Below, piece by piece: positions 4,286-64,000 of a stretch of DNA of 64,000 nucleotides. The notes under the pieces are model-generated. The model made no database searches. It saw only the letters and a list, made by a program, of their open reading frames with translations, and was not told where the DNA came from. Source of the DNA: Pararhodobacter zhoushanensis (GTDB lineage: Bacteria > Pseudomonadota > Alphaproteobacteria > Rhodobacterales > Rhodobacteraceae); NCBI RefSeq assembly GCF_003990445.1, contig NZ_REEZ01000007.1, positions 161,661 through 225,660 on the forward strand, in the 5' to 3' direction. A program made the translations under genes and the position numbers. Numbering within the stretch: the first letter of the stretch is position 1; every line of letters starts with the position of its first letter.

Positions 4286-5416
4286 TCAGTCCCGCGGGGT
4301 CAGGCGGAGCAGCTGGCCGGGGGCGTCGTCCTCGATCAGCCAGACCGCCCCGTCGGGGGCCATGGCCACATCGCGGATACGGGCGTCCATGTCCCAGCGC
4401 TCGGCCTCGTCGGCCTGATCGCCGTCAACCGTGACGCGCACCAATCCCCGCGCGGCCAGCCCGCCGATCAGCGCCGAGCCTTGCCAGTCGGGGAACAGAT
4501 CGCCGGTGTAGAACACCATCCCGGCAGGGGCGATCACGGGCGTCCAGCTCAGGCGCGGGGCCTCGAACTCGGGGCGTTCTTCGTGGTCGGGGATGGCCGA
4601 GCCGCTGTAATTGCTGCCATTCGACACCACGGGCCAGCCATAGTTCAGCCCCGGCGCAATCAGGTTCAGCTCATCGCCGCCGCGCGGTCCCATCTCGTGC
4701 AGCCAGAGGTTTCCGTCGGGCGCAAAGGCCAGCCCGTAGGGGTTGCGGTTGCCCAGCGTCCATAGCTGCGCCGCCACGCCGACCTCATCGGCAAAGGGGT
4801 TGTCCGCCGGGGTCGAGCCGTCCAGCATCAGCCGCAGCACCTTGCCGCGCGCCTGCGCCGGATCTTGCGCGCTCTCGGACAAGGTGCGCTCGCCCAGCGT
4901 CAGGAACAGATGCTCGCCCGCCGGGTCAAAGGCGATGATCGCGCCGGGATGCCCGCCGCCACCGCCCTGCGGCTGACGCCACAACTCCTCGACATCGCGC
5001 AGGCTTGTCCCGTCCAGCCGCGCGCGGGCCAGCACGATCTGGCTGCCGTCCTCGCCGGGCGCGGCATAGGTCAGATAGATCAGCCCGCTCTGCGCGAAAT
5101 CGGGGGCAGGGGCGACATCATGCATGCCCAGCTGGCCCTGCTGATGAACCTCTGGCACGCCCGAAATCTCGGTCTTCTCACCCTCGGGCGTCACCACGAA
5201 CAGATGCCCTGCGTGTTCCGTCACCAGCATCCGCCCGTCCGGCAGCGCCGCAATCGCCCAAGGGGTGTCGAAATCGGCTACCGCCTGCACCGCGAAGGGT
5301 TGGGTCGGACTGTAGTCGCGTGCGCCGACTGTCCGGCCATTGGCGAGAATCGGCAGCACAGCAAGCGCGGTTCCGGCGATCAGGCCAGAAAGGATAAGAA
5401 CGGAGCGCGGACGCAT
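4286..5416 (-). CDS. PQQ-dependent sugar dehydrogenase (soluble aldose/sorbosone dehydrogenase family)
   Basis: 376 residues. A signal peptide or membrane anchor is visible (MRPRSVLILSGLIAGTALAV). The mature part is a six-bladed beta-propeller of the glucose/sorbosone dehydrogenase (Asd/YliI) family: DFDTPWAIAALPDGRMLVTE near the start, the GGGGHPGAIIAFDP and LWTLGNRNPYGLAFAP signatures in the middle, and W-L-I-E-D-D near the end. Such proteins oxidise aldose sugars in the periplasm with PQQ as cofactor; the natural substrate is unclear for most. A strong AGGAG lies six bases before the start. It sits alone between a convergent peptidase gene and the quiC operon, with about 200 bases without a gene upstream. 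Confidence 0.88.
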   Translation of the reverse strand: MRPRSVLILSGLIAGTALAVLPILANGRTVGARDYSPTQPFAVQAVADFDTPWAIAALPDGRMLVTEHAGHLFVVTPEGEKTEISGVPEVHQQGQLGMHDVAPAPDFAQSGLIYLTYAAPGEDGSQIVLARARLDGTSLRDVEELWRQPQGGGGGHPGAIIAFDPAGEHLFLTLGERTLSESAQDPAQARGKVLRLMLDGSTPADNPFADEVGVAAQLWTLGNRNPYGLAFAPDGNLWLHEMGPRGGDELNLIAPGLNYGWPVVSNGSNYSGSAIPDHEERPEFEAPRLSWTPVIAPAGMVFYTGDLFPDWQGSALIGGLAARGLVRVTVDGDQADEAERWDMDARIRDVAMAPDGAVWLIEDDAPGQLLRLTPRD

Positions 5417-5623
5417 GGGGGTCTCCTGGTCAAAGGGCAGGCGCAGGGGGCCTTTGCCCTAATCTAGCGCGCAAGGGTGCCGGGGGCACGTCACCGCCCG
5501 CGCACGTTTTTGTCAGGAGCCACCGCGCGTTGCGCCCCCGGCACCCGTCCGCATCGCGCGCCGGGTTGCGCGCAACACAAAGGTGTCGGCGGGATGCGCT
5601 TGCAGGTCTGAAACGCCGGGCGG

Positions 5624-7507
5624 CTACAGCCGGGGCATCCCTTTGGGCCGGGACAACCGCTTTTGCGCTGCCACCCGGAACGGCGCATTCGCCGCGCCAT
5701 AACCCTGATAGCCGCCGCGCCGTTCGATCAGTTCGATGAACATCGCACCGGCGAAATTGCGCGAATAGAGCTGAAAGAACTCGGCCTCGCCGTCGCGGTC
5801 ATAGAGAATGTTATGCGCCTGCAAGCGGGCCAGAAACGCCGGGTCCAGCTCGAACCGGGCGGTCAAATCGGCATAGTAGTTGCCCGGCATCGGCAGCGGT
5901 TCAAAGCCCAGCACCGCCAACCGTTCGGCCGTGGCAAAGATGTCATCGCAGGCAAAGGCCACATGCTGCACGGCTGCACCAAAGCTGTCGGCCAGAAAGC
6001 CCCCGGCCAGTGTGCGGTGGTTCTCGGCCCCGTTCAGCGTCACCCGCAACCCGCCATCGGGCGAGGACAGCGCCTGACTGCGCACCAGCCCGTCGGGGTC
6101 GATGACGTCGACCATCGGCGTCTTGGTCATGCCGAACAACGAGGAATAGAACAGCGACCATGACAGCATCTCGTCATAGCTCATGGTCAGCGCAAGGTGA
6201 TCAACCCGTGTCAGACCCGCGCCGGGGGCAGAGTTGCCAGTGCGCGTAAACTCCACCTGCCACACATCGCTGAACCCGTCGTCAACGAAATGCAGAACCG
6301 AGCCGCCGACGCCGCGGATGGCCGGGATCGGCAGTTCGCCGGCCTGACGCGGCTGGCTGAATGCCGCGGATCCCAGCGCGATTGCCCGGGCAACCGTGTC
6401 TGGGGCCGAGGCCACGCGCAGCCCGATATCGCAGATATTGGTGCGGTGGACGGTAAACGTGCTGCCCGCGTGGCCCTGCGTTTCGGCGTTCAGCAGAACG
6501 CGGATCGCGCCCTGTTGCCACAGGGTCAGATCCTTGGCGATGTGGCGGCCCGTCTCGGCAAAGCCCAGCGTGCGCAGCAGGGCGGCGATGCTTTCGGCCT
6601 CGGTCCCGCGGGTGGCGATCTCGATGAACTCGACCCCCTGCGCGGGCTTGGGTGCCGGGATCGGTGGCAGATCGACCGTCAGCGACGGCTCGGCCCGGCG
6701 CACGCTGTCCATCAGGTGGATCAGTGAGCGGTGGCCATCGCGGGCAATCGCGCGCGGCAAGCCGCCGCGAAACTGGTCGTTGAAGATTTCCAGACTGATC
6801 GGCCCGCTGTAGCCCGTCGCCATCACCGCGCGCATGAAGCCGGTGACGTCCAGATCGCCCTCGCCGGGCATGTTGCGAAAGTGGCGCGACCAGTAGAGCA
6901 GATCCATCGGGATCGCGGGCGCATCGGCCAGCTGGACAAAAAAGATCCGGTCGCCGGGAATGCGGCGGATGGTGTCGGGGTCGATCCCCCGGCCCAGCGT
7001 GTGAAAACTGTCCAGGATAAGTCCGACATTCGCATGATCGGCGCGGCGCACGATTTCCCACGCATCGCGGTGGTCATCGACATGCTTGCCCCATGCCAGC
7101 GCCTCGTACCCGACGCGCAACCCGCGCTTTGCCGCGCGCTCGCCCAGCTCGGCGAAATCCGCCGCTGCGCGGTCGACACCGCCCTGCGCCTGCGGATGCA
7201 CGGACGAGCACACCAGCATCAGATCGCAGCCCAGTTCACCCATCAGATCGAACTTGCGCTCGGCGCGTTCAAAGGCCCGCCGCCGCAGGTCGCCCGGCAG
7301 CCCCTCGAAATCGCGGAACGGCTGGAACAGCATCAGATCAAGCCCCGCGTCCCGGATGCGGGTCGCCAGCGCGCGCGGGCTGCGGGCGTCGGCGATGAAA
7401 TCCTGCTCAAAGATCTCGATCCCGTCGAATCCCGCCGCCGCGATCGCTTCGATCTTTTCTTCCAGATTTCCTGCGATGGAAACGCTGGCGATCCCGCATT
7501 TCAGCAT
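5624..7507 (-). CDS. quiC: 3-dehydroshikimate dehydratase, QuiC-type (isomerase-like barrel fused to HPPD-like domain)
   Basis: 627-residue two-domain protein. Residues 1 to about 280 form an AP-endonuclease-2/sugar-phosphate-isomerase-like TIM barrel; the rest is a vicinal-oxygen-chelate domain like 4-hydroxyphenylpyruvate dioxygenase (VDHLALTMSYDEMLSWSLFY, and the C-terminal FIELIERRGGYQGYGAAN ligand segment). This fusion is the known architecture of bacterial QuiC, which dehydrates 3-dehydroshikimate to protocatechuate. It is the last gene of a five-gene run: shikimate/quinate dehydrogenase, TRAP transporter P-Q-M, then quiC, with three bases between dctM and quiC. The operon would take up quinate or shikimate and convert it to protocatechuate. 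No protocatechuate dioxygenase lies nearby. Confidence 0.9.
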   Translation of the reverse strand: MLKCGIASVSIAGNLEEKIEAIAAAGFDGIEIFEQDFIADARSPRALATRIRDAGLDLMLFQPFRDFEGLPGDLRRRAFERAERKFDLMGELGCDLMLVCSSVHPQAQGGVDRAAADFAELGERAAKRGLRVGYEALAWGKHVDDHRDAWEIVRRADHANVGLILDSFHTLGRGIDPDTIRRIPGDRIFFVQLADAPAIPMDLLYWSRHFRNMPGEGDLDVTGFMRAVMATGYSGPISLEIFNDQFRGGLPRAIARDGHRSLIHLMDSVRRAEPSLTVDLPPIPAPKPAQGVEFIEIATRGTEAESIAALLRTLGFAETGRHIAKDLTLWQQGAIRVLLNAETQGHAGSTFTVHRTNICDIGLRVASAPDTVARAIALGSAAFSQPRQAGELPIPAIRGVGGSVLHFVDDGFSDVWQVEFTRTGNSAPGAGLTRVDHLALTMSYDEMLSWSLFYSSLFGMTKTPMVDVIDPDGLVRSQALSSPDGGLRVTLNGAENHRTLAGGFLADSFGAAVQHVAFACDDIFATAERLAVLGFEPLPMPGNYYADLTARFELDPAFLARLQAHNILYDRDGEAEFFQLYSRNFAGAMFIELIERRGGYQGYGAANAPFRVAAQKRLSRPKGMPRL

Positions 7508-56153: not shown

Positions 56154-56187
56154 AAAGAGCGGGCCTTGGCCCGCTCTTTCCATTTTG
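56154..56187 (+). terminator. Rho-independent terminator of porin copy 2
   Basis: AAAGAGCGGGC-CTTG-GCCCGCTCTTT followed by CCATTTT: the same 11-bp stem as the porin-1 terminator with a different loop, 23 bases after the stop. Confidence 0.93.
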
Positions 56188-56282
56188 TGATCGGCGGATC
56201 ATTGCGCAGGGCGTCACGGGTTGTTTCGCTGACGCCCGCAGATGTGGTAAACTTGACCATCAAGACAAAGAGAGCCCCGTTG

Positions 56283-56570
56283 ATGCGTCGTCTCCTTCCC
56301 GCGATCCTGATTCTGAGCGCCGCGCCTGCAGCTGCCGAGGTGTCGCATCACATCGAAGGCCGCTTTGGCGTTGCCTATCATGCCACCGGAAACGGTACTG
56401 GCACGACGCAGCCGTTGTATGAGGGGCGCTATACCTCGACCTTCAGCCACACCGCCGATAACGGTCTGACCTTCCGGTTCGAGCTGGGCGTTGTCGTCGG
56501 CAATATCCCCGATCGGGGCGAACGTGCCAGCCGCGACTCATATAGTATCGGTCTGGGCGCGACGGACTGA
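56283..56570 (+). CDS. short porin-like secreted protein (stub or small family)
   Basis: 95 residues. Signal peptide MRRLLPAILILSAAPAAA, then EVSHHIEGRFGVAYHATGNG and FSHTADNGLTFRFELGVVVGN, which follow the first two strands of the neighbouring porins (ISGEGRMGIQ, then ADHGLTFG). The reading frame then stops in a non-porin tail (SYSIGLGATD), so the barrel is incomplete. It could be the remnant of a third porin or a genuine short family member. Genome-like codon use, not the high-expression bias of the full porins. YggS follows 52 bases later. Confidence 0.65.
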   Translation: MRRLLPAILILSAAPAAAEVSHHIEGRFGVAYHATGNGTGTTQPLYEGRYTSTFSHTADNGLTFRFELGVVVGNIPDRGERASRDSYSIGLGATD

Positions 56571-56622
56571 CGGCTTCCCTTTCACGCCTGCCTGTGGCTT
56601 GGTGTCCGAAAACGGAGACGCC

Positions 56623-57282
56623 ATGACACTCGATGCCATCACCAGCCGCTTGCGAGACGCCGAAACCCGTGCCGGACGTGCCGAGGGGTCGGTCACGCTG
56701 ATCGCTGTGTCGAAAGTGCAGCCTGCCGAGCGGATCGAATCCGTGCTTGCCCAAGGGCAACGGGTGTTTGGCGAGAATCGCGTGCAAGAGGCACAGGGCC
56801 GCTGGCCCGCGTTTCAGGAGCGGTTCGAGGGCATCTCGCTGCATCTGATCGGGCCGCTACAAACCAACAAGGCCCGCGCTGCGGTGAGCATGTTTGACGC
56901 GATCCATTCCGTGGACCGGCTGAAGCTGGCCGAGACCATCGCCCGTCTGGCCGATGAAGAGGGGCGGTGCCCCGAGCTGTTCGTTCAGGTGAACACCGGC
57001 GCTGAACCGCAGAAAGCCGGTGTTCTGCCGGACGAGCTGGAACGGTTGATCGCTTCGGTTCGTGCGCTGTCTTTGCCGCTCAAGGGTCTGATGTGCATCC
57101 CACCGGCGGATCAGGACGCGGCAGTGCATTTCCGCCTGCTGGCCGCGCTGGCGGCGCAGAACGGTCTGGAGGGGCTGTCGATGGGCATGTCGGATGATTT
57201 CGAGGTCGCCGTTGAGCTGGGCGCAACCCATGTGCGCGTGGGCTCGGCGATCTTTGGCGAGCGGGTTCCGCCAAAAGGGTGA
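56623..57282 (+). CDS. YggS family PLP-binding homeostasis protein
   Basis: 219 residues, alanine-racemase-like barrel without C-terminal domain. PLP lysine K31 in LIAVSKVQP, then FGENRVQEAQGRWP, LIGPLQTNKARAA, HSVDRLKLA, GLMCIPP and LSMGMSDDFEVAVELGATHVRVGSAIFG, the complete YggS set. It buffers pyridoxal phosphate and affects amino-acid pools. GGAG before the start. Confidence 0.95.
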   Translation: MTLDAITSRLRDAETRAGRAEGSVTLIAVSKVQPAERIESVLAQGQRVFGENRVQEAQGRWPAFQERFEGISLHLIGPLQTNKARAAVSMFDAIHSVDRLKLAETIARLADEEGRCPELFVQVNTGAEPQKAGVLPDELERLIASVRALSLPLKGLMCIPPADQDAAVHFRLLAALAAQNGLEGLSMGMSDDFEVAVELGATHVRVGSAIFGERVPPKG

Positions 57283-57298
57283 GCGGGTGGCGCGCTTC

Positions 57299-57375
57299 GG
57301 GGCCATCGAGGCCCCTCAGCGCGCGTGGGGGGCGCTGCCCCCCACGGCCTTGCGGCCTCCCCCCGGGATATTTTC
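57299..57375. repeat. triple-hairpin intergenic element (Rhodobacteraceae G/C type)
   Basis: Three adjacent hairpins: GGGGCC-ATCGA-GGCCCC (57299-57315), GTGGGGGGC-GCT-GCCCCCCAC (57325-57345) and GGCC-TTGC-GGCC (57347-57358), followed by CCCCCCGGGATATTTT. The closing CCCCCGGGATATTT motif is a recurrent intergenic feature of this family, probably acting as terminator or RNA-end stabiliser between yggS (+) and the L,D-transpeptidase gene (-). Confidence 0.65.
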
Positions 57376-57390
57376 AGCATAAAGTTGGGG

Positions 57391-57897
57391 TCAGGGGCGC
57401 ACGAGCAGGCGCGCGCCGGGCGTGAGGCGTCGGGCGATCCAGAGGAGGTCTGCGCGCGCGAAGGCGATGCAACCGGCGGTGGGGTAGCCGGGGCGACGCC
57501 AGGTATGCAGGAAGATGGCCGAGCCCTTGCCGGGGACAGCGGGGTGCATGTTCCAGTCGGTGATCAGGATCAGGTCATAGAGCGGGTCGGCGCGGCGCAG
57601 CGTCTCGTGGCTGGCGTTGAGTGGCGCGCGGACGGGTTGGTTGTAGGCACCGTGTGTGGGGTCGTCGCACCACAGGGCGCCAAGGCCGATCGGCGTGGCC
57701 CAGCGGGGCAGGGTGTGGGCCGGGATACGGTCGGGGCGGTAGAGCAGGCCGGTGATGCGGTGCTCGCCGGCAGGGGTCGCCAGGTCGCCCTCAACCTTGT
57801 CGCGGGTGATGCCGCTGCGCCCGATGGTACAGGGCAGGGTGCGCCCGGCAAAGCGCAGGCCGGTAGGGGTGAGGACAAGATCGGTGGTGGTCATCAT
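57391..57897 (-). CDS. L,D-transpeptidase (YkuD family)
   Basis: 168 residues. The catalytic region is AIFLHTWRRPGYPTAGCIAFARADL, with His and nucleophilic Cys in the H-x(n)-S/T-x-G-C-I pattern. No signal peptide is visible, unusual for a cell-wall enzyme; short cytosolic-looking YkuD proteins of this type are common in alphaproteobacteria. Last gene of the ribA operon, ATGA overlap with the unknown gene before it. Confidence 0.88.
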   Translation of the reverse strand: MMTTTDLVLTPTGLRFAGRTLPCTIGRSGITRDKVEGDLATPAGEHRITGLLYRPDRIPAHTLPRWATPIGLGALWCDDPTHGAYNQPVRAPLNASHETLRRADPLYDLILITDWNMHPAVPGKGSAIFLHTWRRPGYPTAGCIAFARADLLWIARRLTPGARLLVRP

Positions 57898-58604
57898 GGG
57901 GCGGCTTTGAGTGTTGAGAACCAGAGCTGATCGAGGGCATCGACGGCGGCGGGATCGAAACGGGATTCTTCTTTCCAGTATTTGCCCGACGCGACGATGT
58001 AGCCCAGCCGCGCCTCTTCCGCGAGCGCGGCGGTGAGGGGTGGGGGCGTGATCGGGCGCAGAGTGGCCACTGTGTCCAGCGTGGCGCGGGGAAAGACGAG
58101 GCGGCTTTCGTCGTCCGAGAGGTTCACGCAGGCGCAGCCCTGCGCGGCGGCGAGGAGCATGAGGCGGGCGGATTTGGCCTCGAGGCTGCGCAGCGAGATG
58201 TCCTTGCGCAGCGGGTCGGGCGTACCGGTGCCGTAAAAATGTGTGGGGCCGGTGTCAGGATAGACCATGTCGCAGCCGAAATAGGCCAGCACGCGCGGTT
58301 TGAGCGCGCCAAGCGCCCAGTAACCGGCGGTGAAGCTCATCGTGCCGCCGGCATAGACGAAACCGCCATAGCCGTTCTGGATCGGCACATAGGCGTCGGA
58401 GCGGATGATGCTCTGGCTCGCGCTCGGCGTTGCGGGCTGTTGCTCGGGCGGGAAATCGTCGGGGTGGATCAGGAAATCCCAATCCGGGCGCACCCGCCAG
58501 GCGTTGTTGATCGCCACAATCTGTGTGAAGGGCGCGCGGGGCCAGTCAGCGGCGCGGTTTGCGCTGGGGCCACTGCCGAGCACCAGCACCACGCCGCAGC
58601 TCAC
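57894..58604 (-). CDS. unknown protein, Rossmann-like GSGPS N-terminus
   Basis: 236 residues from a GTG start overlapping the ribA stop (GTGA). It opens with VVLVLGSGPSANRAADWPRA and continues IVAINNAWRVRPDWDFLIHPDD, resembling the N-terminal fold of MptE-like/DUF115 and sialyltransferase-like proteins in which a named ligand sits behind GxGPS. A Cys/Tyr pair follows (YFGCDMVYPDTG). No membrane segment. Located between ribA and the L,D-transpeptidase, with overlaps on both sides, so it is translationally coupled to both. Not a family I can name. Confidence 0.55.
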   Translation of the reverse strand: MSCGVVLVLGSGPSANRAADWPRAPFTQIVAINNAWRVRPDWDFLIHPDDFPPEQQPATPSASQSIIRSDAYVPIQNGYGGFVYAGGTMSFTAGYWALGALKPRVLAYFGCDMVYPDTGPTHFYGTGTPDPLRKDISLRSLEAKSARLMLLAAAQGCACVNLSDDESRLVFPRATLDTVATLRPITPPPLTAALAEEARLGYIVASGKYWKEESRFDPAAVDALDQLWFSTLKAAP

Positions 58605-59680
58605 AGCAGGTGCCCGGATTTCGCGGCTTTGGTCGCGAGATAGGCGGCGTTCTCGTCTGTCTGGCCGACCTTGAGCGGAACGCGCTGGGTCACGTCGATG
58701 CCGCCCTTCTGCAGCATCGCCACCTTGCGCGGGTTGTTGGTCAGCAGGCGGACCTGTGAGAAACCCATCTTCTTGAGCAACTCGGCACCCAGGCGGAAGT
58801 CGCGCTCGTCATCCTCGAACCCCAGCCGGTGATTCGCCTCGACGGTATCAAAGCCCTGATCCTGCAAGGAATAGGCGCGCATCTTGTTGGCCAGACCGAT
58901 GCCGCGTCCCTCCTGATTGAGGTACAAGAGCACGCCCGAGCCCGCTTCGTGCATCGCGATCAAGGCGGCATGCAGCTGCGGGCCGCAGTCGCATTTCAGC
59001 GAGCCGAGCACATCGCCGGTAAAGCAGGCCGAGTGCAGCCGGGCCAGCACCGGGGCGTCGCGCATCGGGCGGCCTACCTCGACCGCGTAATGCTCGACCC
59101 CGCCGTCCTGCGGGCGAAAGACATGCAGCCGTCCGGCCCCGGCCAGACGCATCGGCAGGCGGGCGGCGATGACGGGGGAGAGGCGGGTCTCAGGGGTGTT
59201 GGTTTCCTCGGCGCTGAGCGTGGTCAGGCTGTGGCTGCTGGCCAGATCGGCAGCGGCGGGCGCAACCACCACGACGGCGGCGGGCAGCAACTGTGCCGAT
59301 TTCACCAGCCGGATGGCAGCGCGATGCAGCGCCGCCGGCCCGTCGCGCTGGGACAAGAGCGGGCCTTTCATCGGGTGGGTCAGGTCGTCGGCGGGATCGG
59401 CCAGCGCCTCGATCCACGCGACGCCCACATCCCCCGGCAGCACGATCCGCGCCACATCGCCGTCATAGGCGCGCGCCTTCAGCGTCGCGGCGCGGTGGGC
59501 GGTCAGCGCGACAACCGGCTGCCCGATCGCGCGCAGATCGGCGAGGCGGGCGGCGTCAAGCGTCTCGGCGGCACCAACGAGCGCCGAGGACGCGCCATCA
59601 GTCAGCACGACGGGCAAGCCCATACGCAGGTCGGCGCGGGCACGGTTGAGCCGTTCGAGCGGGCTGGGGGTCAGCGACAT
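58601..59680 (-). CDS. ribA: GTP cyclohydrolase II with degenerate N-terminal (RibB-like) domain
   Basis: 359 residues. The C-terminal half is a complete GTP cyclohydrolase II: LHSACFTGDVLGSLKCDCGPQL (zinc Cys), YLNQEGRGIGLANKMRAYSLQD and EANHRLGFEDDERDF. The N-terminal 170 residues occupy the place of the DHBP synthase domain of RibBA but lack the DD...RENEGD active-site motif, so that activity is not expected. Produces the first committed riboflavin intermediate. First gene of the overlapping ribA-unknown-L,D-transpeptidase operon; divergent from cenR. Confidence 0.92.
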   Translation of the reverse strand: MSLTPSPLERLNRARADLRMGLPVVLTDGASSALVGAAETLDAARLADLRAIGQPVVALTAHRAATLKARAYDGDVARIVLPGDVGVAWIEALADPADDLTHPMKGPLLSQRDGPAALHRAAIRLVKSAQLLPAAVVVVAPAAADLASSHSLTTLSAEETNTPETRLSPVIAARLPMRLAGAGRLHVFRPQDGGVEHYAVEVGRPMRDAPVLARLHSACFTGDVLGSLKCDCGPQLHAALIAMHEAGSGVLLYLNQEGRGIGLANKMRAYSLQDQGFDTVEANHRLGFEDDERDFRLGAELLKKMGFSQVRLLTNNPRKVAMLQKGGIDVTQRVPLKVGQTDENAAYLATKAAKSGHLL

Positions 59681-59851
59681 GAGGGGCCTTGCTGAAACAT
59701 TTGCCCCTAGGATGTAAGACAGGACGGGGGAAATTGAAACATTCCCCGGTAAACCGACACGACCGCGTGACAAATCGTGGCTTTGCTTGAACAAACCCGC
59801 CCGCGCCCACAGTTTAATCCGTGAATGACCTGTGAATTTGAGGCCAAAGCA

Positions 59852-60538
59852 ATGTCGAAACTGAACAAGATCCTGCTCGTCGACGACGACGATGACCTGC
59901 GCGAGGCGCTGGCGGAACAGCTGGTCGCAACCGAAGACTTCGATACGTTCGAGGCGGGCGATGGCGCCGCCGCGATGGAACGTGTGCGCGATGAGCAGTA
60001 TGATCTGGTCATTCTGGACGTGGGCCTGCCCGATACCGACGGGCGCGAGCTGTGCAAGCGGATGCGCAAGGCGGGGGTGAAATGCCCGATCCTGATGCTG
60101 ACCGGGCAGGACTCGGATGCCGACATGATCCTGGGGCTGGACAGCGGCGCCAATGATTACATCACCAAGCCGTTCAAGTTCCCCGTGCTGCTGGCCCGCA
60201 TCCGCGCGCAGCTGCGTCAGCATGAGCAGTCCGAGAACGCGGTGTTCCAGCTGGGCGACTATCAGTTCAAGCCCGCGCAGAAGATGCTGGTCGATGCCAA
60301 AGAGCGCAAGATCCGGCTGACCGAGAAAGAGACCAACATCCTGAAATTCCTCTACCGCGCGCCGGACGGACTGGCCCCGCGTGAGGTGCTGCTGCATGAG
60401 GTCTGGGGCTATAACGCCGGTGTCACCACGCACACGCTGGAGACCCACATCTACCGCCTGCGCCAGAAGATCGAGACGGACCCGTCGAACGCGCGCCTGT
60501 TGGTGACCGAACCCGGTGGATATCGGCTGGTGCCGTAA
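59852..60538 (+). CDS. cenR: OmpR-family response regulator, CenR-like
   Basis: 228 residues. Receiver domain 1-120 with DDDDD acidic pocket, phospho-Asp in LVILDVGLPDTDG, switch Thr in LMLTGQ and Lys in YITKPFKFPVLLARIRAQLR; winged-helix DNA-binding domain from about 135 (RLTEKETNILKFLYRAPDGL, then EVWGYNAGVTTHTLETHIYR). The sequence closely resembles CenR, the essential cell-envelope regulator of Rhodobacter and Caulobacter; the name is by recall, not search. No histidine kinase is adjacent. Start at 59852 with GAGG upstream. Confidence 0.75.
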   Translation: MSKLNKILLVDDDDDLREALAEQLVATEDFDTFEAGDGAAAMERVRDEQYDLVILDVGLPDTDGRELCKRMRKAGVKCPILMLTGQDSDADMILGLDSGANDYITKPFKFPVLLARIRAQLRQHEQSENAVFQLGDYQFKPAQKMLVDAKERKIRLTEKETNILKFLYRAPDGLAPREVLLHEVWGYNAGVTTHTLETHIYRLRQKIETDPSNARLLVTEPGGYRLVP

Positions 60539-60589
60539 AAAAAAATTAGGTCGGGCGTCGTTTTGTTGCCCGATTCACCCCAGATTAAT

Positions 60590-60710
60590 GTCTGTCAGCG
60601 AGACTTGATCTCAGGGTGTTCCTCCCTCCCTCCCTCGCGTGTTGGGGTTATGACACGAACCTCCCTGTTGGACTGGCCCGGGCTCCCTCGCCCGGGCCTT
60701 CTTTTATTTG
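60590..60710 (+). ncRNA. candidate small RNA with repeated CUCCCU motifs
   Basis: Downstream of cenR lies a stretch with no open frame that has CCTCCCTCCCTCCCT (60621-60635), CCTCCCT (60661-60667) and a strong Rho-independent terminator whose loop is TCCCTC. Repeated C/U-rich loops of this kind resemble the CcsR small RNAs of Rhodobacter (CCUCCUCCC motifs), which bind target sites or anti-Shine-Dalgarno regions. A weak promoter could start it (TTGTTG at 60562, TAATGT 17 bases later). Ends are estimated; no expression evidence. Confidence 0.4.
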
Positions 60711-60711
60711 G
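60676..60711 (+). terminator. Rho-independent terminator after cenR / candidate small RNA
   Basis: GGCCCGGGC-TCCCTC-GCCCGGGCC, a 9-bp all-G/C stem, followed by TTCTTTTATTT. It overlaps the tail of the convergent secreted-protein gene (stop at 60704). Confidence 0.9.
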
Positions 60712-61162
60712 CCGGTTGGGGTGTGGGGCCGGGGGTTGGCGCGAAGTCGATATGCGGCAGGGTCAGCGCGAACTCGATACGCAGGCCGGTGGCGGGGTCG
60801 CTGACAGACCCGGCCAGATCCAGATCATTGCCCTGCACCCGCGCGCGCTGGACGGCGATCTGTACATCGGACACGGCATGGGCCGCGCCTGCAGGCGGGA
60901 TCATCGTGCCGTCGCGCCCCTGACCGTTCTCCACGGCCAGCCCGATGATCCAGTCGCCCTCGGGCCCTGACGCAAGGAAATGCACGCTGAGCACGCCGTC
61001 GTAGGAATTCCACGACGAGCGATTACCGAGCGTGGCGGGGTCGATGGACAGCGAAAGCCGCTGGCCGTCGCGGATCAGCGTCACCGTGGCGGGTGTGTCG
61101 GCTTGCGCAGGCAGCGCAAGCGCGAGGCTGGCGGCGAGCAGAAAACGGCGGGTCACGGGCAT
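60704..61162 (-). CDS. small secreted protein of unknown function
   Basis: 152 residues with a signal peptide (RFLLAASLALALPAQA). The mature part is beta-rich (VTLIRDGQRLSLSIDPATLG, YDGVLSVHFLASGPEGDWIIGLA) and ends in a Pro-rich tail (FAPTPGPTPQPAK). No cysteines. It may be a lipocalin-like or other beta-barrel periplasmic protein; I do not recognise the family. Convergent with the cenR side and divergent from xthA by 71 bases. Confidence 0.65.
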   Translation of the reverse strand: MPVTRRFLLAASLALALPAQADTPATVTLIRDGQRLSLSIDPATLGNRSSWNSYDGVLSVHFLASGPEGDWIIGLAVENGQGRDGTMIPPAGAAHAVSDVQIAVQRARVQGNDLDLAGSVSDPATGLRIEFALTLPHIDFAPTPGPTPQPAK

Positions 61163-61233
61163 GGCGGCCTCTCAAGCGGGTTTCTCAGGGCGTGGCGGAC
61201 GTGTAGACCCATGGGATCAGCCACGGAGATATC

Positions 61234-62022
61234 ATGACCTTCACCCTCGCCACCTGGAATATCAATTCTGTCCGTCTGCGGGCCGGTCTGGTTCAAAAAC
61301 TCCTGACCGAAGAAGCCCCCGACGTGCTGTGCCTGCAGGAATGCAAGAGCCCGGTCGACAAGATCCCGGTCGAGCTGTTCGCCGAGCTGGGCTATGGTCA
61401 CATCGTGGCGCGGGGGCAGAAGGGCTATAACGGCGTGGCGATCCTGTCGCGGATGCCCTTGCGGGATGCGGGACATATCGACTGGTGCGAAAAAGGCGAC
61501 GCGCGGCATGTGGCGGCCGAGCTGGAGAACGGTGTGGTCATCCACAACTGCTACGTGCCCGCGGGCGGGGACGAGCCGGACCGCACGATCAACGAGAAGT
61601 TCGGTCACAAGCTGGATTTCGTCGCCGAGATGCGCGACCGGTTCCGGGAGTCGCTGCCGGCCAGGTCGATCCTTGTCGGCGATCTGAACATCGCGCCGCG
61701 GGAAGACGACGTCTGGAGCCACAAGGCGCTGCTGAAAGTGGTCAGCCATACCCCGGTCGAGGTTGAGGCGTTCGAGGAAGCCCGCGCCGCCGGGGGGTGG
61801 GTGGACATCACGCGGCAGGACGTGCCCGAGGGGCAGCTCTATTCGTGGTGGTCCTACCGGGCGAAGGACTGGGATGCGGCGGACAAGGGGCGGCGGCTGG
61901 ATCATATCTGGGCCAGCGCGGATATCGGCGCGGCGGGGCATTCATCGCGGATCCTGCGGGCGGTGCGGGGCTGGACCCAGCCCAGCGACCACGCGCCGGT
62001 GCTGGCGACGTTTGATCTGTAA
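61234..62022 (+). CDS. xthA: exodeoxyribonuclease III
   Basis: 262 residues, endonuclease/exonuclease/phosphatase fold. Motifs: TWNINSVR, LCLQECKSP, GYNGVAILS, LVGDLNIAP, RLDHIWAS and QPSDHAPVLATF, with the conserved Glu, Asp/Asn and His catalytic residues. It removes abasic sites and 3' blocks in base-excision repair. Normal length. Confidence 0.96.
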   Translation: MTFTLATWNINSVRLRAGLVQKLLTEEAPDVLCLQECKSPVDKIPVELFAELGYGHIVARGQKGYNGVAILSRMPLRDAGHIDWCEKGDARHVAAELENGVVIHNCYVPAGGDEPDRTINEKFGHKLDFVAEMRDRFRESLPARSILVGDLNIAPREDDVWSHKALLKVVSHTPVEVEAFEEARAAGGWVDITRQDVPEGQLYSWWSYRAKDWDAADKGRRLDHIWASADIGAAGHSSRILRAVRGWTQPSDHAPVLATFDL

Positions 62023-62186
62023 GGGGGATGGGTGTCCCCTGATGGGAGATTTCTCGGGTCGTTGAAAATCAAGCACTTGGGTGGTGCGATTAACCTGTCC
62101 TTAGGGTTTTGGCCGGGGACACGGGCCCGCGCGGGGGCTTGCGGGGGTGGTCTGGCTGCCCCATGCTGCCGGTCGGAGGGCCAGCG

Positions 62187-63875
62187 ATGACCGACGCGGA
62201 AAAGGCCTATGAACGCGCGAAGGAGCTGATCGCTGAGGCGAAGGCCGAGGGGGCGACGCGGCTTTCGTTTGATCACGAGGACACGCGTGCGCTGAAGGTA
62301 CTGCCGCGCGAGATTTCGGAACTAACAGCGCTCCAAAGCCTCAGCCTTGATCATACGCAAGTCAAAGACTTGGCCCCACTTACGGGACTGACCAACCTAA
62401 CAGAGTTAAGGCTGGAAAGCACAGGTATCATGGACCTGTCTCCGCTACGCGGACTAAGTGCTCTGACTAAGTTGTGGCTGGAGCTAAAAGGGAAGAGGCG
62501 CGGGCAACATCAACAAATAGACGCAACAAAAGATGGCTCCAAGCTACCGGCGGGGACTGGCAAAAGCGTCGACATAACAGGCATGCGGGTGCTCGCAGCT
62601 GATGATAACGCTACTAACCGCATGATCCTAAGGGCGATGTTGCATCAACTCGGTGTCACGACGCACGTGGTAAGTGGCGGCAACGAAGCTATTGAGGCCT
62701 ATAGGGCAAGCTCGTTCGACCTTTTGATCATCGACATAAATATGCCCGATCGCGACGGAATCGATGTCATGCGTGAAATCCGTGCGATGGAGGCGGCACG
62801 CTCTATTGTAGGATCGAATGCACCGACCAAGATGTTGCCGATAGTCGGTTTTGCGGCCAACATGATGTGGCATCAACGCGAAACCTATCATGAGGCGGGC
62901 TTCGATGATTGCTTGGTAAAGCCGTTGCAAATGGGTCCGTTGCGCGAAGTACTTTCGTCACTGATCGCAGATAGGGGCAGGCGCACGTCTCCCAACTCAG
63001 TGCCATTGCGCGACGAACTCGTTGCCCCGCAGCCCCCTTCCACACGTCCTGCTCCATTGCAGGCAGGTATTAGCGGTGGGCGGCTGGTCAGGGCCGGGGG
63101 CAAGGCGCTGCCTAAGGCGGATCCGTTGGTCCGGGCCGAGGCCGGGTGGCGGGCGCTCAGGGCGTATCGCGCGACCTTTGGCAGCGCCTTCAATCTGCAC
63201 AACCATCATCCGCTGGGGGCGTTCCTTGATGCCTTTGACATGGCGATGGGGGACCGGTTCGATCCTGAAAATTCAATCCTGATCGGCGCGATGAGTGGCG
63301 GGATTATTGCCTTGGCCGGAAATGGCGAGTTCTGCGGGCAATTGCCGGTCGGGGCCGAACCGTTGTTGCGGCAGTTCGCGGCGCAGTTGCAGACCTATCT
63401 CAACCGTTTTCCGGATTGGACGGCGTATCAGGAGGATGCGGCGGGGGGCGAGGACAACACTGCCAGTGCCGCCGAAAGCTTCGAGGCGCTGGACGAGGAT
63501 TTGCAGGCCAGCCCCGACACGGACCGCGATGTGGCTGAGATCTATGACATGCAGGTCCGTGCCGCCCTTGACCCCCAGAGCGCGGAGGGGACGCGCAAAG
63601 GCCTTGTTGCCTCGACCGGCGAAGTCACGCGTGCGCTTGCGGAGAAAGCGCTGGACGAGGTCAGGAGTGGGCAGGCGGTGCGCGGGTATGTCGGCTCAAT
63701 GGACAAAGTGCACGATGCCGAGGCAGCGAAGGTTGGCTGGTACGCGGGCGGATTTGCTGTGGTGTTTATCCAGCGCCGCAAAGCGCATTTCAGGCGTCTT
63801 GCCGACACGTATCCAAGCCGAATGGGGTGGTTGCACGGGGTGCTCGACTACCTTTTCGGGGCTGAGCGCGACTGA
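62187..63875 (+). CDS. chimeric protein: leucine-rich repeats, hybrid-kinase-type receiver domain, unknown C-terminal region
   Basis: 562 residues; GGAGGG before ATG. Residues about 25-100 are leucine-rich repeats (LPREISELTALQSLSLDHT, LAPLTGLTNLTELRLESTG, LSPLRGLSALTKLWL). Residues 131-262 are a receiver domain of the kind at the end of hybrid histidine kinases: acidic D139 D140, phospho-acceptor D183 in LLIIDINMPD, Lys245 in DDCLVKPL; the normal switch Thr (ALTAN) reads GFAAN, Ala at 223. The C-terminal 250 residues (AEAGWRALRAYRATFGSAFNL, then a short hydrophobic stretch GWYAGGFAVVFI near the end) are not a family I know. The middle (about 62310-63010) is visibly poorer in G/C and richer in ATA, CTA, AGG, AAA codons than the ends. 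No kinase is adjacent. Confidence 0.8.
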   Translation: MTDAEKAYERAKELIAEAKAEGATRLSFDHEDTRALKVLPREISELTALQSLSLDHTQVKDLAPLTGLTNLTELRLESTGIMDLSPLRGLSALTKLWLELKGKRRGQHQQIDATKDGSKLPAGTGKSVDITGMRVLAADDNATNRMILRAMLHQLGVTTHVVSGGNEAIEAYRASSFDLLIIDINMPDRDGIDVMREIRAMEAARSIVGSNAPTKMLPIVGFAANMMWHQRETYHEAGFDDCLVKPLQMGPLREVLSSLIADRGRRTSPNSVPLRDELVAPQPPSTRPAPLQAGISGGRLVRAGGKALPKADPLVRAEAGWRALRAYRATFGSAFNLHNHHPLGAFLDAFDMAMGDRFDPENSILIGAMSGGIIALAGNGEFCGQLPVGAEPLLRQFAAQLQTYLNRFPDWTAYQEDAAGGEDNTASAAESFEALDEDLQASPDTDRDVAEIYDMQVRAALDPQSAEGTRKGLVASTGEVTRALAEKALDEVRSGQAVRGYVGSMDKVHDAEAAKVGWYAGGFAVVFIQRRKAHFRRLADTYPSRMGWLHGVLDYLFGAERD

Positions 63876-63923
63876 CCTGCGTCCACGCAGCTAGCTGAGA
63901 AAGCGCGGCGGAACTGGAGGCCG

Positions 63924-64000
63924 TGAGCTGCTCCCCAAAAATCGGACAGTGACGGAAGCTACGATCTGACGTCTGCTGGTCTCCAAGAACGAGGAGATCA
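63924..64000 (+). mobile_element. probable left end of an insertion sequence, cut by window edge
   Basis: From TGAGCTGCTCCCCAAAAATC onwards the sequence looks like the terminal inverted repeat and leader of an IS3-like element, ending in GAACGAGGAGATCA, a ribosome-binding site directly before an ATG that would fall just beyond base 64000. Neither the transposase nor the other end is visible, so the family is an impression. Confidence 0.4.

Follow-up and report, generated by a model that had tools for sequence, protein, structure and literature searches.

We propose that the reading frame at 62187-63875 of the window (the whole analysed stretch of 64,000 nucleotides from Pararhodobacter zhoushanensis) is a genuine gene of mosaic structure. 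An older leucine-rich-repeat (LRR) gene, ending in one kind of C-terminus (type B), would have had its body replaced by one carrying another C-terminal module (type A), with a kinase receiver in the place of the usual linker; this receiver, a pseudo-receiver, would act as a docking or switch piece. We give the reading as a whole a probability of about 60%. The architecture of the gene, its relatives, the kinship of the receiver, a similarity break near 62270-62290 and the trace of an old gene end are directly supported. Judged by sequence comparison, the gene is a mosaic in a variable LRR family of the Rhodobacteraceae, and its architecture was found in one genome only.

Domain architecture and relatives

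The 562-aa product is encoded on the + strand by an uninterrupted frame that begins with ATG at 62187 and ends with TGA at 63875. As the preliminary description had read it, this single frame joins leucine-rich repeats, a receiver and a C-terminal region; the last has no Pfam model. The repeats (aa 41-98, 62307-62480), about three by a simple pattern, are recognized as LRR_4 (PF12799, E 3e-9, 37.3 bits against a cut-off of 27, best over aa 48-88), and with LRR_4-type repeats above the cut-off the protein counts as a bacterial LRR protein. A first linker (aa ~101-128, 62487-62570), the upstream junction zone, leads to the receiver (aa ~133-262, 62583-62972), which is matched by Response_reg (PF00072, E 2.3e-18, 66.8 bits against 30.2, aa 135-255). 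The Pfam scan found neither HisKA nor HATPase_c in the protein, which by its domains is not a hybrid histidine kinase. The receiver is followed by a tail resembling a kinase C-terminus (DRGRRTSPNSVPLR..., 62973-63035), which forms the second linker and the downstream junction zone, and then by the type A domain (aa ~284-562, 63036-63872) with its Pro-rich RPAPL start. Beyond aa ~265, Pfam gives just CBM_5_12_2, at an E value of 0.13 and under its cut-off.

AlphaFold2 divides the full 562-aa chain (mean pLDDT 86, pTM 0.53) into three domains, most of each predicted with confidence: the repeats, a complete receiver with the (beta-alpha)5 order of the Response_reg fold, and the helical domain at the C-terminus. 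They are joined by two low-confidence linkers at aa 103-125 and 270-277 (block pLDDT 52-56 over aa 101-130 and 47 over aa 271-280), which coincide with the putative joints and count in favour of a mosaic. Modelled alone, the C-terminal part reaches a pLDDT of 86 and a pTM of 0.85, as a beta-hairpin and then some 15 helices; it has no close counterpart in solved structures, which does not establish a new fold.

The type A domain is present in six of 198 family genomes at E <= 1e-3 and in six of 391 order genomes at E <= 1e-5, the query's own genome being counted each time. Combined, these searches give ten matches in nine other genomes, among which L028, L029 and L030 are weak or partial (E 6e-6 to 3e-4). 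Identity is 33-42% for L105, L106, L036 and L035 (alignment A1) and up to 44% in the search. Pfam detects Response_reg in none of the ten proteins, which supports the receiver as the intruder. LRR_4 repeats stand in frame with the type A domain in half of them (L035, L036, L105, L108 and L028), and these five are receiver-less homologues of the kind that the preliminary description had expected for the family; L106 has repeats close by in a different frame, and L027 is without a Pfam match.

The N-terminal part is shared as well, with 66% identity to the sister genome G018 over aa 1-99, and by its N-terminus and C-terminal domain together the protein belongs to the LRR-linker-C-terminal family of the Rhodobacteraceae. 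It has the N-terminal helix and the repeats in common with L105, L035, L036, L108 and the type B protein L031 of G018; its Pro-rich start and C-terminal domain recur, in addition, in the type A proteins. The normal order in LRR members is repeats, linker, Pro-rich start and C-terminal domain, and a linker residue pattern occurs in 10 of the 12 tested relatives (LRR or type A proteins), whereas it was not found in the query, where the receiver occupies the linker's place. That two of the 12 relatives also miss the pattern counts against the mosaic reading. The earlier suggestion of an inserted receiver holds in that none of the ten type A relatives has one, but rather than being simply added it took the place of the linker, and probably of some repeats too.

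Among 394 family genomes, with at most seven candidates scored per genome, no joint of LRR to receiver was seen, in agreement with the stated rarity of the pairing, and the full architecture does not recur in this set. The lack of a second copy of the LRR-receiver-C-terminal architecture counts against the mosaic reading.

Several further arrangements were met in the surveyed genomes. In G504 the type A domain lies in one frame with the lipid A enzyme LpxC (L107 1492-3294; PF03331 E 3e-93). The weak C-terminal matches of L029 (1192-2688, G072) and L030 (1189-2826, G022) stand behind another N-terminal module without a Pfam model, and the two share a W-x-V-W-T-D-W-Y motif. In the MAG DT_100 the same LRR N-terminus is joined to DUF6161 (L011 5554-7245; E 4e-11), one more C-terminal module. 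The LRR and C-terminal parts occupy separate frames in G494 (L110, ~4300-5900), a split or broken gene, and in G015 a transposase-like frame (L033 4164-5549, by reading) lies directly upstream of the LRR gene.

Gene exchange at the locus

Upstream, the locus is anchored by an exonuclease III-like gene (61234-62022, + strand; Exo_endo_phos, PF03372 E 1.6e-26), which we take to be xthA and whose DNA is 95% identical in G018. G018 matches the window with 91% identity across 56154-62393 and has no match past 62393. In 60-base steps, identity is 0.90-0.93 over 61980-62219 (0.93 in the last step, 62160-62219), 0.83 over 62220-62279 and 0.62-0.67 after 62280; the first ~28 codons of the gene (62187-62270, + strand) are common with the G018 LRR gene and form the upstream side of the exchange, where identity breaks. 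In G018 an LRR gene comes after the exonuclease gene. It has 577 codons when counted from the equivalent start (585 from an ATG further upstream) and encodes about ten repeats, a linker and a type B C-terminus; further 3' lies a thioredoxin-TPR gene, presumably trx. Comparison of the type A with the type B C-terminus gives no sign of similarity (hhalign probability 0.5%; BLASTP E 0.44). A response-regulator-like frame (59825-60538, by reading) is situated about 1.6 kb upstream in the window and is 95-100% identical in G018 from 60000.

The same neighbours recur around type A genes elsewhere. In G257 the exonuclease, LRR and thioredoxin-TPR genes follow one another in one direction, as in G018; in G145 a thioredoxin-TPR gene follows the type A gene, and the exonuclease gene is divergent at a distance of about 1 kb; in G494 a thioredoxin-TPR gene again comes next, and past it, on the opposite strand, is the exonuclease gene; and the type A gene of G193 is at another locus. 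Within the genus, five of 19 genomes carry the LRR N-terminus, and in G014 the thioredoxin gene directly follows the exonuclease gene.

Past the query stop, and in frame with it, lies a trace of the tail of a type B LRR gene (63886-63923, + strand), which agrees with the collinear stretch of G018 at 29 of its 38 bases and reads TQLAEKARRNWRP against APLAEEARRKWRP there (9/13). In the same register, none of 61900 38-mers of the window reaches 29 (maximum 23). At any position in the 175-base target, five of 12200 48-mers equal the score, none of them at the collinear place, and none of 2000 shuffles is as high, the best coming near it (29 against 31); these two results weigh against the mosaic reading. 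This type B trace after the query stop points to a probable exchange of the gene body at the same site.

The window ends with contig C54, 125 bases past the gene, and its last 77 bases (63924-64000) are the left end of an insertion sequence (IS) that starts 48 bases past the stop. Contig C56 has the same 77 bases at its end, and C11 has them internally at 90%; the IS-like end noticed earlier about 50 bases after the gene is real. Contig C43 begins with the opposite end of such an element (77 bases) and continues with 94% identity to G018, the synteny running from the last codons of the G018 LRR gene onward. By reading, the flanks at C54 and C43 both show CCG, which looks like the IS's own 3-base target duplication, and we infer the adjacency C54-IS-C43 from synteny; this indirectness and the nearby contig end weigh against the mosaic reading. 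Since the IS sits inside the trace of the old gene, it probably arrived later than the exchange, and with its apparent target duplication it does not serve as the sign of separate acquisition for which it had been taken. The trace is 76% identical to G018 against 94% past the IS, and this difference counts against the mosaic reading; the exchanged gene would therefore have been an already divergent allele, or the trace has drifted.

The GC content at third codon positions (GC3) steps down within the gene, from 0.78 over aa 1-40 to 0.58 over aa 41-295, and returns to 0.76 over aa 296-562. Across the 37 other long frames of the stretch, 310 windows of 255 codons have a mean of 0.82 (sd 0.05, minimum 0.62), and none is as low. 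The composition shift pointed out in the preliminary description is real, but it is not specific to the receiver. The low block starts in the repeats (aa 41-98, GC3 0.55), ahead of the receiver, and includes both (0.53 over aa 99-128, at the first linker). LRR genes of three other genomes are likewise poorer in GC3 than their neighbours (0.47 against 0.63-0.64 in G145, 0.56 against 0.66-0.68 in G257, and 0.68 against 0.87-0.89 for the fragment in G494), and in L105 of G257 the repeats are GC3-poorer than the C-terminal part, the receiver being absent. The sister gene of G018 departs from this, since its repeats reach a GC3 of 0.95; taken by themselves, the genes of G193, G511 and G001 lie at 0.73-0.83. 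Because several receiver-less relatives are also low, low GC3 is weak evidence for an inserted receiver. Of the proposed separate acquisition or recombination of the LRR-receiver stretch, what stands is the probable body exchange, with its break near 62270-62290 and the trace; the arguments from composition and from the IS do not hold in the form given.

Origin and active site of the receiver

The receiver part matches a frame of 493-876 aa at E <= 4e-33 in all 19 genus genomes, its own included, the best at 61% identity in G012; among the receivers of the tree below, its best identity is 62%. In a shallow tree of 26 receivers including the query, 13 are of the GAF-PAS kinase type and come from 13 genus members; the query and these 13 form a 14-row group (support 85/88) that is not starred as one of the best supported, a point against the mosaic reading, and the smallest starred group with the query has 16 rows (support 97/98) and adds two receivers of another genus. 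A 7-8-residue insert before the LPI strand is shared by the query and 12 of the 13 genus receivers and is absent from the 12 other receivers. The similarity also extends past the receiver into the kinase tail, where DRGRRTSPNSVPLR aligns with ERGRRRPTPRGGVIPLRATSG and similar ends of genus kinases, a few residues before the kinase stop. By these common features (insert, tail and a best identity of 62%), the receiver is related to the one that ends the GAF-PAS hybrid kinase of its genus, from which it differs in standing without a kinase core and in the loss of the switch Thr. The earlier label of a hybrid-kinase-type receiver was apt, whereas that of a foreign segment was not, since the insert in common with the genus's own kinase means that the receiver is not foreign to the genus. 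The kinase is intact in the query's own genome (L032, 728 aa, GAF-PAS-HisKA-HATPase-REC), and the two receivers are 59% identical; the captured copy would therefore be old or fast-evolving and not a fresh duplicate. The end branch of the query is long (0.76), which counts against the mosaic reading.

The receiver keeps the acidic pair D139 and D140 as well as D183 and K245, and has Ala at the switch Thr position 223, where all 25 compared receivers have Thr; D183, K245 and the Ala had been correctly noted before. The five active-site residues of a canonical receiver (DD, D, T/S, K) are thus incomplete. In addition, A226 has become Met and V231 Arg, at positions where the 25 other receivers hold only A/V and V/I, and 12 of the 64 positions that are invariant in the 13 genus receivers are altered in the query (leave-one-out among the 13 gives 0 to 4), which like the long end branch would fit a dying gene. 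In the available text of PMC12632262, a pseudo-receiver is a receiver in which one or more of the five active-site residues are missing, and by that definition the predicted active site makes this receiver a pseudo-receiver, owing to Ala223. It resembles the pseudo-receivers treated there in missing one such residue and differs from them in retaining the phosphorylatable Asp and in sitting between repeats and a domain of unknown function. The same source describes the switch T as contacting a phosphoryl oxygen and as part of a known allosteric network; with the acidic pocket and the Lys kept and the switch Thr lost, phosphorylation may therefore be possible while signalling, or the normal shape change, may be weakened.

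Proposed role and competing readings

In the usual product of the family, repeats (likely the binding part) would be connected by a conserved linker to a C-terminal module that can be exchanged (likely the output part). We propose that an older type B gene kept its first ~28 and last ~13 codons and that everything between them gave way to a type A-ending block, in which the linker is gone and the receiver and tail of the genus GAF-PAS hybrid kinase are in its place; the body exchange probably came first and the IS afterwards. The repeats may still bind a partner, and the C-terminal domain may act as output. The linker would normally couple the repeats to the C-terminal module, and the pseudo-receiver that takes its place may be a phosphorylation-impaired docking or switch piece, possibly in contact with the phosphate-donor machinery of the parent kinase. 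Most economically, the receiver would be a spacer plus a docking piece for the parent kinase's partners.

The main rival to this proposal, improbable in our judgement but deserving serious weight, is a decaying mosaic, a by-product of recombination without selected function, which at most is still transcribed and whose receiver is drifting. The long receiver branch and the loss of a Thr kept in 25 of 25 others would fit such drift, as would three repeats by the simple pattern against 8-11 in G018, G145, G193 and G511, the IS 48 bases past the stop and the restriction of the architecture to one genome. However, the frame has stayed open over 562 codons, D139, D140, D183 and K245 are kept and the three domains are predicted with high confidence, and by the same simple pattern few repeats are also seen in L105 (one), G144 (three) and the P. 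aquimaris frame (two). Less likely than decay, and doubtful altogether, is a working phospho-switch, in which the receiver would take phosphate from a kinase or Hpt protein and control the output by the usual conformational change. The Ala at the switch position, the Met and Arg at 226 and 231 and the pseudo-receiver status under the quoted definition of PMC12632262 speak against it, even though the metal, phosphate-acceptor and Lys positions are retained and an intact kinase of the parental type is encoded in the same genome. A chimera of assembly or contamination is the least probable of all: the sharp composition step and the nearby contig end might suggest one, but both sides of the block fit one syntenic locus, the frame continues through both joints and the receiver is just 59% identical to that of its own kinase, so that an assembly join in 62310-63010 is unlikely.

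Receivers without kinases have been described in predicted prokaryotic conflict systems (PMC8195603, in the available text), and the query is like them in carrying a receiver in a modular protein off the kinase core. PADLOC (2023 library) gives a sole match, PDC-M60C at E 3e-5, which covers aa 133-228 and hence the receiver only, and none of five relatives matches. By analogy, and as a long shot, the gene could encode a bacterial version of the 'integrated decoy' known from plants, a repeat recognition protein with a captured receiver of its own kinase whose switch residue is lost. If so, an attacker or user of the kinase would bind or modify the receiver and thereby trigger the C-terminal output without a phosphorelay signal, and the locus would be an exchange site for recognition and output modules.

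Under the mosaic reading that we prefer, domain exchange is caught at one locus, where the flanks are 91% identical and the gene bodies differ, one of them carrying a receiver related to a kinase of the genus. The helical C-terminal module without a Pfam model is found behind LRR, behind another N-terminal module of unknown kind and also behind LpxC. Should the receiver be in use, repeat-based recognition would be joined to two-component signalling in this protein. The gene illustrates how modular genes are rebuilt.
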